A DNA stretch of 64,000 nt. Source: Candidatus Fibrimonadaceae bacterium. Lineage in GTDB: Bacteria > Fibrobacterota > Fibrobacteria > Fibrobacterales > Fibrobacteraceae. Below are positions 41,271 through 45,150 of the stretch, piece by piece; position 1 is the stretch's first letter, and each line of letters opens with the position of its first letter. The translations under genes were made by a program, and so were the position numbers. Below the pieces are notes generated by a model that saw only the letters and a list, made by a program, of their open reading frames with translations, was not told the origin of the DNA and made no database searches. The stretch spans positions 1 to 64,000 of the forward strand of contig JAITFP010000072.1 of the NCBI GenBank assembly GCA_031281275.1, given 5' to 3'.

Positions 41271-41403
41271 ATAGTAAATGCTGATAATTAGTTAGGCTAG
41301 TGGGGAATGGCTAGTGGCTAGTGGGAAAACCACAAAAACCAGTATTTTCAAGACGACTACTAGCTACTTACCATTAGCTACTCCCAAACATTTAGTTAAT
41401 CAT
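41271..41403 (-). repeat. Dispersed intergenic element, copy 4
   Basis: Close to copy 1 in sequence and orientation (ATAGTAAATGCTGAT, GGCTAGTGGGGAATGGC, AACCAGTATTT, CTACTCCCAAACATTTAG). Read on the minus strand, it begins in the last codons of rpe, supplying its TAA, and ends in GCATTTACTATATT, the -10 region of panD. It fills the whole rpe-panD gap. Confidence 0.88.
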
Positions 41404-42030
41404 AGTAAGAAACTTCCTAGTTTCTTCTTCGATGTTCTTTGCGCTGAATATGGCGGAGCCTATAACAAAAATATTTGCACCAGCATCACGGGCAAGAGGC
41501 AAGGTTTCCAAATTCACTCCGCCGTCTATCTCTATTTGCAAATTTGGTTTCATTGCGCGCAAATTGTGAATTTTTTCCAAACAATATGGAATTAACGATT
41601 GCCCGCCAAAACCTGGGTTTACGCTCATAATCAAAACCATATCTGCTAGGTCTAAAACTTCTTCAATGGATGCAAGCGGCGTGGCAGGATTTATTGCAAC
41701 TCCAGCTTTGCATCCCAATTCCTTTATTTGATTCAGCAATCTATCCAAATGTTTTGTTGCTTCTGCGTGAACGGTTATGTATTGAACTCCGGCACGTGCG
41801 AATGCCTCTATGTGTAGCTCTGGGTTGTTTATCATCAAATGGCAATCCAACGGAAGTTTTGTGCAATTACGAATTTGCTGCGCGATGCCGGGACCAAAGG
41901 AAATATTGGGAACAAAACTTCCATCCATTATATCCAAATGAATCCAGTTTGCGCCACCTTTTTCGGTGGCTTTTATGTCTGCTTCCAAATTCAGGAAATT
42001 GGCATTTAAAACACTGGGAGCTATTATCAT
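41392..42030 (-). CDS. rpe: Ribulose-phosphate 3-epimerase
   Basis: 212 residues, interconverting ribulose 5-phosphate and xylulose 5-phosphate. Barrel motifs are clear: IAPSVLNANFLNLE, HLDIMDGSFVPNISFGP, MSVNPGFGGQ and IEIDGGVN. The C-terminal residues and stop codon overlap the start of repeat copy 4. It lies five bases after pdxB on the same strand. Confidence 0.97.
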   Translation of the reverse strand: MIIAPSVLNANFLNLEADIKATEKGGANWIHLDIMDGSFVPNISFGPGIAQQIRNCTKLPLDCHLMINNPELHIEAFARAGVQYITVHAEATKHLDRLLNQIKELGCKAGVAINPATPLASIEEVLDLADMVLIMSVNPGFGGQSLIPYCLEKIHNLRAMKPNLQIEIDGGVNLETLPLARDAGANIFVIGSAIFSAKNIEEETRKFLTMIN

Positions 42031-42035
42031 ATAGG

Positions 42036-42977
42036 TTAATTTACATAAATTCTTTCATATCCATTTCTTATTTCCGTGAAATTCTCTGGATTTTTTCTGA
42101 AAGCCAAATCGTCTGTGCGAATTGAATAAGTGCCAGTTTTATTTTGGGAAATATCAAAGCGAATATCGCACTCCACTCCGAAAAATTTGCACAATGAGTC
42201 TATTATCATTTTATTTGCATTTATTTTTGCTTGTGCGCTGTGACCTGCTATGTGCGGAGTTGCTATTTCAACCAAGGGCAAAAGCGAGGTATCTATGTTA
42301 GGCTCGTTTTCCCAAGTGTCTATAACCGCGCCACCCAAATGCTTTGTTTGCAAAGCCTCGCACAAATCCGTGCTGTTGCACACTGCTCCACGGGCTGCAT
42401 TTATAAGCCATGCCCCTTTTTTTGTTTTGCTGAAAAATTCTCTGTTTGCAAGATATTTGGTTGGATATTTTCCTCCTATTTCAAGAGGAGTGTGGAGTGT
42501 TATTATGTCTGCGGCAAAAATATCATCATTTAAATTTTTTGGCGGGTCGCATAACAAAAGCCTCATTCCAAAACTCTCCGCATTTCTTTTTACGCAAGAG
42601 CCAACTGCACCAACTCCAACAATTCCGAGTGCAAGTTCGTTTAAGGGTTTGCTTATTTTTTTTGAAATTTCAATCAAAACGGCAGATATATAATCTGCAA
42701 CAGACTCTGCATTGCTGCCATGTGCCGTTGCAAAAAAAATCCCGTTCTGTTTGCAAAACTCGGTATCTATATGCTCATAACCAGAAGTAACCGTTCCTAT
42801 AAATTTCACCTTTGTACCTAGCAATATTTCTGCCCCATATTTTCTGGTTGAGCGAATAATCAAAGCATCGGAATTTTTAAGCGTTTCTTTTGAAATATTT
42901 TCAGAGTTTAAATATTGTACAGTGAACCAAGGTTCCAAAACACCATGCAAAGAGTGGATAGTTGAGTCTATGGACAA
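42036..42977 (-). CDS. pdxB: Erythronate-4-phosphate dehydrogenase-like protein
   Basis: A D-2-hydroxyacid dehydrogenase with PdxB-type features: SGYEHIDTEFC, NAD-binding GIVGVGAVGS, INAARGAVC, and ATPHIAGHSAQAK, the last characteristic of PdxB. It would act in pyridoxal phosphate synthesis. The ORF-track start lies upstream in tRNA sequence and is wrong. In-frame there is no ATG before the conserved N-terminus. The best start is the TTG at 42977 (LSIDSTIHSLHG), which overlaps the acceptor stem of tRNA-Val. About 313 residues, somewhat shorter than E. coli PdxB. Confidence 0.8.
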   Translation of the reverse strand: MSIDSTIHSLHGVLEPWFTVQYLNSENISKETLKNSDALIIRSTRKYGAEILLGTKVKFIGTVTSGYEHIDTEFCKQNGIFFATAHGSNAESVADYISAVLIEISKKISKPLNELALGIVGVGAVGSCVKRNAESFGMRLLLCDPPKNLNDDIFAADIITLHTPLEIGGKYPTKYLANREFFSKTKKGAWLINAARGAVCNSTDLCEALQTKHLGGAVIDTWENEPNIDTSLLPLVEIATPHIAGHSAQAKINANKMIIDSLCKFFGVECDIRFDISQNKTGTYSIRTDDLAFRKNPENFTEIRNGYERIYVN

Positions 42978-43045
42978 TACAAGATTTGAACTTGTGACCT
43001 CTGCCGTGTGAAGGCAGCGCTCTAAACCAACTGAGCTAATTGTCC
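42971..43045 (-). tRNA. tRNA-Val (anticodon CAC)
   Basis: The 75-base gene folds as a complete cloverleaf: acceptor GGACAAT with ATTGTCC, D arm GCTC/GAGC, anticodon stem CTGCC/GGCAG with loop TTCACAC (anticodon CAC, reading GTG), and T arm ACAAG/CTTGT with TTCAAAT. Discriminator base A; CCA is not encoded. It lies 13 bases after cheR and its 3' end overlaps the probable start of pdxB, so it may be processed from a longer transcript. Confidence 0.95.
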
Positions 43046-43058
43046 CTTTCAAACTTCT

Positions 43059-44012
43059 TTAGATTGTATATTTGCTGGGTGATAAATCAAAAGTCGCACC
43101 AAAAGGAGAAGCTGTAGCAGTTGTATTTGTATTTGGACTTGCAGACGGCTTTCTGTAAATAGTAGTAGCTCCATACCTTTCGGTAGTGAATTCATCGTTG
43201 AGGTTATACATATTTTCAGCTGAACCTAAAAGCAAATAACCGTTTGGAGCAAGCGTTTGATATAATTGCGCGAGGATTTTGCGTTTTGCATCGTCTGTGA
43301 AGTAAATTAAGATGTTGCGGCAAAATATAACATCAAAAGAACCTATTTGCGTGAATGGGTCTTGAATGTTGAATGCCTTAAACTCTATAACGTTACGGAT
43401 GGTATTGTTTATGATATAATTGTCACCCTCTTGCAAAAAATATTTTTTGCGCATTTCAGGCGATAATCCGCGAGCAACTTCCAAAGGACCGTATTTGCCT
43501 TCCATAGCTTTTGCTAAAACTTTTGAAGAAATATCCGTGCCCAGAATGCCAAAATCTTCCATAGTGGTTAAGCCCATGCCCCTAGTGCTAACTACATCTG
43601 CAATGATCATAGCCATGGAATAAGGTTCCTGCCCTGTGCTTGCTGCCACGCTCCACATCCTAACTTTTGGTCCTCTGCGTTGCCAAGACCGCTCTTTGCG
43701 CTGTACAACAGTTTCCATCATAGCAGGCATAATTTTTTCTCTGAATGTCACATAAGGATGATCGTCTCTAAACCACGAAGTTTCGTTAGTGGTCATGGCA
43801 TTCAGCATTTTTTCGCGAGTTAAGAAGGTTGTGGCTCCAGAGCTTAGTTTTTGTGCCAACTGTGAAAAATTTTCACAGCCAAATTCGTCCAAAATAGGAG
43901 ATAAGCGTTGCTCAATCAAATATTGTTTATCATCGCCTAAAACAATTCCACAGATATCAAAAACATATTTGATAATTATATTGTAATCATCATGACTCAT
44001 TAATACGCTCAT
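43059..44012 (-). CDS. cheR: Chemotaxis protein methyltransferase CheR
   Basis: 317 residues. It methylates glutamates of chemoreceptors using S-adenosylmethionine. Visible are the N-terminal helical domain, NETSWFRDDHPYVTFRE, the SAM motif region SVAASTGQEPYSMAM, and FDVIFCRNILIYFTD. It lacks an obvious receptor-docking C-terminal beta-subdomain extension. It follows cheB by 13 bases. Other che genes are not in the window. Confidence 0.94.
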   Translation of the reverse strand: MSVLMSHDDYNIIIKYVFDICGIVLGDDKQYLIEQRLSPILDEFGCENFSQLAQKLSSGATTFLTREKMLNAMTTNETSWFRDDHPYVTFREKIMPAMMETVVQRKERSWQRRGPKVRMWSVAASTGQEPYSMAMIIADVVSTRGMGLTTMEDFGILGTDISSKVLAKAMEGKYGPLEVARGLSPEMRKKYFLQEGDNYIINNTIRNVIEFKAFNIQDPFTQIGSFDVIFCRNILIYFTDDAKRKILAQLYQTLAPNGYLLLGSAENMYNLNDEFTTERYGATTIYRKPSASPNTNTTATASPFGATFDLSPSKYTI

Positions 44013-44025
44013 AAAAACCCTCCCT

Positions 44026-45150
44026 TTATTTTCTGCCTAGGTTAATACGTTCAACTATAGCTTCAGGGATACGAATTAAAGTTGCAACTTTATCTAATAA
44101 ACCTGTTGCTGCCGCTGCACGAGGCATTCCGAACACTACAGAAGATTCTTCGTCTTGAGCTATTAAATAGGCATTTTTGTTTTTCAAATATTGCAAAGAG
44201 GGCGTACCATCATTGCCCATGCCTGTTAAAATAACTCCAACAAGAGTGTCTGCGGGGTAAGCTTGAGCCGCAGAGCGGAACAAAACGTCCACGCTTGGAC
44301 GGCAGCCGTTCTCTGGCGGATTGTTGTTATTGTCCAAAACATAATGTGCTCCTCTGGAGTTCACAACCATGTGGCAACCACCGGGAGCAATATAAACGGT
44401 TTTATCTTCAACCACGGTACCCGGCAAGCCTTCTACCACGGTATGGTTGCATTTTGCGTTAAGGCTATCTGCCAAAGATTTTGTGAAATTTGGTGGCATG
44501 TGCTGCACAAGCAAGATTGGCAGGTCTGTCATTGAACAGAGTTTTGGAAGCATATCTGCCAAAGATTTTGGACCTCCAGTGGAGACTCCTATTACTATTG
44601 CTTGTATGGGCTTTGTATGTACAGATGGTTTTGCCAAAGTATAGGTAAAACCCGCTGCCGCCCCTGCTCCTGCGGCTGTAGCTGCGGCAGGATGAACGCT
44701 GGTGCGAGTAGGAGCGGTTCCGCCTCTGTTTTTGCGAGAAACCCATGCAGATATGGTGGTATTGAGCATTCTGTTAAGGCTTTCTTGCGAATTGGGAATT
44801 TCTGGAGCTGGCTTTGCTATAAAATCAAAGGCACCGCATTCAAGTGCTTTCAGTGTAATGTCAGAACCCGTGCGAGTTAAGGAACTTACCATCAACACGT
44901 CGGGCGAGGATTTAAGCTCGCCTTTGCTGGCAAGCATCTTTTTGAGCGTTGCAAGCCCATCCATTCCTGGCATTTCAACATCCAGAGTCATTAAATCTAC
45001 TGGGCGTATTTTCAAAAACTCCAAAGCAGCCAAGCCACTATCTACGGTACCGACAACCTGAACCCCAGGTATGTTGGCAATCATTTTTTCCAATATGCTC
45101 CGAAACACTCTGGAGTCATCGACTATTAAAATTTTCGCTGATTCACTCAT
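44026..45150 (-). CDS. cheB: Chemotaxis response regulator protein-glutamate methylesterase CheB
   Basis: 374 residues: a receiver domain (VDDSRVFRSILEKM, Asp in LMTLDVEMPGMDG, Lys in AKPAPE), a Pro/Ala-rich linker (TAAGAGAAAG) and the CheB esterase domain with catalytic Ser in IGVSTGGPKSL, His in LVQHMPPNFT and Asp in GVILTGMGNDG. It demethylates or deamidates receptors. It is upstream of cheR in the same operon. Confidence 0.96.
   Translation of the reverse strand: MSESAKILIVDDSRVFRSILEKMIANIPGVQVVGTVDSGLAALEFLKIRPVDLMTLDVEMPGMDGLATLKKMLASKGELKSSPDVLMVSSLTRTGSDITLKALECGAFDFIAKPAPEIPNSQESLNRMLNTTISAWVSRKNRGGTAPTRTSVHPAAATAAGAGAAAGFTYTLAKPSVHTKPIQAIVIGVSTGGPKSLADMLPKLCSMTDLPILLVQHMPPNFTKSLADSLNAKCNHTVVEGLPGTVVEDKTVYIAPGGCHMVVNSRGAHYVLDNNNNPPENGCRPSVDVLFRSAAQAYPADTLVGVILTGMGNDGTPSLQYLKNKNAYLIAQDEESSVVFGMPRAAAATGLLDKVATLIRIPEAIVERINLGRK

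Follow-up and report, generated by a model that had tools for sequence, protein, structure and literature searches.

The question raised by this locus is how a protein gene can begin inside an intact tRNA gene on the same strand, and what such a start means for the two products. We analyzed a window of 64,000 nucleotides (positions 1 to 64,000 of contig JAITFP010000072.1) from G000, a genome of the termite-gut Fibrobacterota genus Candidatus Fibrimonas. It was compared with relatives, of which the nearest named one is Candidatus Fibrimonadaceae bacterium isolate Nx346_bin40 (G006), a separate assembly (MAG). The features of the locus are as follows.

44026..45150, minus strand: cheB (NF001965, 357 bits, over the cut-off)
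43059..44012, minus strand: cheR (PF01739, E 3.6e-50)
43063..43068, minus strand: putative tRNA -10 box TACAAT from a consensus scan, within the end of cheR, 17 nt before the tRNA
43050..43052, minus strand: alternative in-frame TTG from the ORF list, kept in G006, adding 25 aa and reading through the whole tRNA
42971..43045, minus strand: tRNA-Val(CAC) (ARAGORN; Rfam RF00005, 71.9 bits), identical in G006 (75/75)
42036..42977, minus strand: pdxB-like gene (erythronate-4-phosphate dehydrogenase), 313 aa counted from TTG 42977
42975..42977, minus strand: proposed pdxB start TTG, in frame, within the 3' acceptor strand ATTGTCC, aligned with the ATG starts of relatives
42948..42950, minus strand: TTG at codon 10, by sequence the first standard in-frame start that would remain after tRNA 3' cleavage
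41392..42030, minus strand: rpe (TIGR01163, 275 bits, over the cut-off)

The minus-strand series cheB-cheR-tRNA-Val(CAC)-pdxB-rpe, which a sequence-only reading had proposed, is borne out by HMM matches for the protein genes and by ARAGORN and Rfam for the tRNA. The two tRNA predictions agree on the limits 43045-42971 on the minus strand. The acceptor stem is fully paired, CCA is not encoded, and the last base, 42971, is the discriminator base. The tRNA does not lie at the 3' end of an overlapping upstream frame; the cheR stop stands 13 bases before it, as had been read from the sequence and as the coordinates confirm (43059 and 43045). The overlap is instead with the start of the downstream gene, pdxB. 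The pdxB-like frame (stop at 42036) is open across the whole tRNA, back as far as a TAA immediately before TTG 43052, and if TTG 42977 is the start, the intact tRNA and the coding frame share two codons and one base on the same strand. At the other end of the gene, 5 nt separate the pdxB stop from rpe.

The PdxB model NF001309 was the best of all models for the encoded protein (291.7 bits, E 7.6e-87), with the next enzyme type at E 8.5e-33. The match is below the curated equivalog cut-off (291.7 vs 434 bits). PF02826 and PF00389 also match the protein, and the three closest solved structures (3oet, 5dt9, and 2o4c) are all PdxB. The C-terminal dimerisation domain DUF3410 (PF11890), which was matched in 5 of 19 homologues, is absent. 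Because the cut-off is missed and this domain is absent, PdxB-like is the best name for the protein, whose C-terminus is shortened. PdxB of the genus (here 42036-42977) is without DUF3410, and the other genera of the family have a longer one. The presence of pdxJ in all five genomes checked makes the PdxB pathway of vitamin B6 plausible. In the comparison of G000 with G006, the whole pdxB gene has 78 synonymous and 46 non-synonymous codon differences, 97 of the 154 base changes are at third positions, and there are no stops or frameshifts.

Several lines of evidence bear on the start codon. A start at the acceptor-stem TTG gives the predicted N-terminus (M)SIDSTIHSLHGVLEPWF, and its first residues M-S-I-D can be compared with, for example, M-L-I-T-L-D or M-I-T-I-D in relatives without the overlap. 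In ten other genus members an ATG sits 1-2 codons upstream of the TTG 42977 position, with no tRNA there. All 19 homologues, Bacteroidota sequences included, keep Asp4 and Ile7. The AlphaFold model of the PdxB-like protein places the first beta strand at residues 2-4; its mean pLDDT is 89 overall and 90 over residues 1-10. Between G000 and G006, 5 of the 6 differences in pdxB codons 3-9 are at third positions (p=0.018, from two sequences and few sites). The conserved N-terminus, the modelled strand, and the third-position changes indicate that coding extends back to the tRNA boundary, which makes a start at codon 10 unlikely. The proposal that pdxB starts at the TTG of the acceptor stem is thus supported by the conserved N-terminus, the coding-type substitutions, and the same overlap in G006. 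We regard this start as well supported by comparison, with its use in the cell inferred. The stronger claim that TTG 42977 is the only start keeping the N-terminus does not hold, since TTG 43052-43050 is also in frame; by alignment, TTG 42977 is the nearest predicted start that preserves the conserved PdxB N-terminus. UUG is a weak start codon. In the folded transcript UUG 42977 is base-paired, so low PdxB expression would be expected, and no Shine-Dalgarno sequence lies at normal spacing before it.

Relatives were checked for the overlap, as the sequence-only reading had advised. It is present in the sister species G006, whose PdxB is 85% identical, and ten other genus members are without it. 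Genus-wide conservation is thus ruled out by the presence of the overlap in 2 of 12 genomes, G000 and G006 only. Between these two the tRNA is unchanged while its flanks have diverged. The overlap is beyond chance: it is identical in G006 despite the diverged flanks, most changes in the first codons behind the tRNA are at third positions, and the invariant Asp4 and Ile7 would be lost with a downstream start.

The origin of the overlap can be read from gene order in the genus. In G002, G003, and G007, cheR and tRNA-Val(CAC) are found without pdxB behind them; the next genes, assigned by eye, are an HDOD/EAL-like frame, a convergent histidine-kinase-like gene, and a ligA-like gene. A ligA-like gene (by eye) also follows tRNA-Val(CAC) in G008. 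In G002, a pdxB-rpe-panD-TPR block (panD by eye) is located elsewhere, with its own ATG and no tRNA. Since cheR-tRNA without pdxB and tRNA-free pdxB both exist in the genus, the overlap is, on this comparison, derived: pdxB was fused to the 3' end of the tRNA and took over a UUG that was already there. We also considered that the tRNA had been altered to create the TTG, which is ruled out by the presence of TTGTCC in tRNA-Val(CAC) of genus members without pdxB at that site. As no other genus member has the overlap, the G000/G006 case looks like a fairly recent fusion and not a widely conserved regulatory device. With only two species showing it, the overlap may even be a tolerated accident without regulatory meaning.

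The gene behind tRNA-Val(CAC) differs in almost every species, as seen in G002 (L035), G003 (L033), G007 (L037), G008 (L036), and G011 (L034). Because of this variation, the end of this tRNA looks like a rearrangement hotspot. In G011 (L034 and L053, contig C20, 192-27965), a tyrosine-integrase-like gene (by eye) stands directly behind tRNA-Val(CAC), and 45 bp of the tRNA 3' end are repeated at a distance of 27.7 kb. This is apparently an integrated element with tRNA-Val(CAC) as its attachment site. There are also 5' halves of tRNA-Val at L049 (G001, CAC), L059 (G002, GAC-type), and L060 (G010, GAC-type), each with a TATATT box upstream and unrelated sequence behind. They are possibly remnants of integration or rearrangement.

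We consider it reasonably probable, as an overall account, that an ancestral tRNA-pdxB fusion recruited the UUG as a start and that the 3' cut makes the tRNA and PdxB alternatives. A rearrangement in the ancestor shared by G000 and G006 would have put the pdxB-rpe block at precisely the 3' end of tRNA-Val(CAC), a tRNA that would already have been behind cheR. The pdxB ATG would have been lost, and the UUG of the acceptor stem would have become the start codon. Transcription would run from the tRNA promoter into the gene; pdxB-rpe would probably be driven by this promoter, with or without read-through from cheBR. The tRNA would be released by RNase P and an RNase Z-type cut. The earlier suggestion that tRNA processing cuts the pdxB start agrees with the positions: a 3' cut after base 42971 would take off the start codon and part the UUG from the body of pdxB. 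The earlier interpretation is supported in part, and such a cut may couple tRNA maturation with pdxB expression. One primary transcript would then give either mature tRNA-Val or PdxB, the two being mutually exclusive because the start codon would be lost on 3' cleavage. Low-level PdxB would be made from uncut or misfolded transcripts, which may be enough for an enzyme of a cofactor pathway, and rpe would still be translatable from the trimmed RNA. A divergent RNase Z-like metallo-beta-lactamase gene is present in G000 (C7, L386:1471-2373). Its protein scores far below the family cut-off (57 vs 293 bits) and is a likely candidate for the tRNA 3' nuclease.

The proposed fusion can be set against the arrangement of other tRNA genes in the genus. 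We counted the tRNAs with an ATG within 8 nt of their end that begins a frame of 100 codons or more, and the statistics rest on this count alone, as the other start caller was crude and chose an internal ATG for pdxB. Such starts follow 7/32 tRNAs in G000 and 7/32, 5/29, and 2/34 in three other genus genomes, the seven cases of G000 being in common with G006 and so not independent. The count was 0/98 in three other genera of the family (p = 3e-5 for G000 vs these), and the rate at random positions was 4-6%. Terminator-like hairpins follow 4 of 127 tRNAs in the four genus genomes vs 69 of 98 in the three other genera (p = 3e-29). Across seven genomes, no scanned tRNA gene encodes CCA. Most terminators behind the tRNA genes of the genus have been lost, and the tRNAs lead directly into genes. 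Homology-anchored starts follow a tRNA end at +2 (dnaX), +4 (dnaB), +5 (pyrH), and +5 (rsmD), and in the sister species at +7 (dnaG), +6 (a gyrB/parE gene), and +2 (nuoA). At seven G000 loci (L144, L146, L153, L154, L159, L165, and L262), genes that include dnaX, dnaB, pyrH, and rsmD begin 2-5 nt behind a tRNA without an intervening terminator, an arrangement absent from the three other genera of the family. A PHP-domain gene has a TTG start after tRNA-Glu at +1 in G000 (L155) and G006 and at +0 in G010, so UUG starts at tRNA ends recur. Among these genes, pdxB is the extreme case of a genus habit of starting genes at tRNA ends.

A 3' cut at these tRNAs would yield near-leaderless mRNAs, with processing and near-leaderless translation inferred. 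We put forward tentatively, at slightly less than even confidence, that Candidatus Fibrimonas uses tRNA genes as mRNA punctuation in the manner of mitochondria, with pdxB as the limiting case in which tRNA and enzyme exclude each other. Loss of terminators together with tRNA 3' cleavage would give near-leaderless messages for dnaX, dnaB, pyrH, and rsmD, and in the sister species for dnaG, the gyrB/parE gene, and nuoA. If this is true, one RNA must choose between tRNA and message. A start codon in an intact tRNA would be a clean natural case of the speed of tRNA end cutting set against that of translation initiation. The genus pattern suggests that the mRNA 5' ends of essential genes can be set by tRNA excision in a bacterium as well as in an organelle, and gene starts at tRNA ends across the genus raise the interest of the locus beyond pdxB.

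The placement of many genus genes where tRNA trimming would set the mRNA 5' end also favors a different reading of pdxB, that the processed RNA is the real mRNA. Translation would then begin at TTG 42950 or at a non-standard codon, giving a PdxB about 9 residues shorter, and tRNA 3' cleavage would leave a 20-nt leader before that TTG. We find this unlikely: a start there would cost the protein strand 1 and the invariant D4 and I7, codons 3-9 still have the look of coding sequence, and TTG 42950 has no Shine-Dalgarno sequence.

In another reading, a separate promoter within the tRNA would make a short-leader or leaderless pdxB mRNA that is unable to fold as tRNA, so that there would be no competition with tRNA maturation. 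Leaderless-type promoters, with a -10 box 6-9 nt before the ATG, occur often in the genus (in 33 of 272 genes sampled), and TATATT stands 6-7 nt before the pdxB ATG in several family members. The best box at that distance before TTG 42977 is only TCAAAT (4/6 by eye), and the consensus scan found no promoter inside the tRNA on the minus strand. An internal promoter was rejected, as there is no convincing -10 box and the scan result is not above the shuffle background; we judge this reading improbable. The TACAAT box at 43063..43068 in the same type of scan is likewise not above the shuffle background. In genus tRNAs a -10-like box is mostly 9-16 nt upstream. A special RNA fold over the pdxB start was also rejected, because the tRNA-pdxB junction folds with no better energy than shuffles do.

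A start at TTG 43052 would have pdxB translated through the whole tRNA, with an N-terminal extension of 25 residues, nearly all tRNA-encoded. The frame is open, the TTG is conserved in G006, and AAAGAAG/AAAGAAA lies just upstream. This purine-rich stretch lies nearer the TTG than normal spacing would require, an extension of this kind is seen in no homologue, and ribosomes would need to unfold the tRNA. As the tRNA is identical in both species, the open frame there is no evidence of coding. TTG 43052 is the less likely start, and we hold this reading to be quite unlikely. Finally, an artefact or a decaying gene, by misassembly or loss of pdxB expression, is suggested by the MAG-only data and by the use of this tRNA as an integration site in one genus member, but it is very improbable because two assemblies with differing sequences have the same tRNA-pdxB junction and the mostly synonymous, third-position changes in pdxB include no stops or frameshifts.

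The fusion preferred here can be compared with known systems. Bacterial tRNA-mRNA operons such as E. coli tRNA-tufB are alike in carrying a tRNA and a protein gene on a common transcript, and in them the stretch from the tRNA to the start codon holds an ordinary leader and a ribosome-binding site. In mitochondrial tRNA punctuation, tRNAs stand directly against genes and their excision sets the mRNA 5' ends, giving leaderless or near-leaderless mRNAs. The likeness is that many G000 genes have start codons at or within a few bases of tRNA 3' ends. The case differs in that this is a 2.7-Mb bacterial genome, only a fraction of its tRNAs are so arranged, and Fibrimonas tRNAs appear to have their own promoters. 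No precedent for a bacterial start codon inside a tRNA was found in the open-licence literature beyond selB-selC, which is the closest published case found. There, the tRNA-Sec gene (selC) of Alphaproteobacteria, Gammaproteobacteria, and Nitrospirae lies within selB or overlaps it (Mukai 2021, PMC8124441). The same work cites a mitochondrial tRNA with an overlap (PMC8124441). In a termite-gut lineage, tRNA-Sec ends at position -2 of the selA start (PMC8124441), which agrees with the genus pattern found here. The tRNA and the protein were proposed to be alternative products of one selB-selC transcript (PMC8124441). Both cases thus have a tRNA gene and a protein frame sharing bases on one strand and the same either-or model, but the tRNA overlaps the end of the upstream gene in selB-selC, whereas in tRNA-Val-pdxB it holds the proposed start of the downstream gene.
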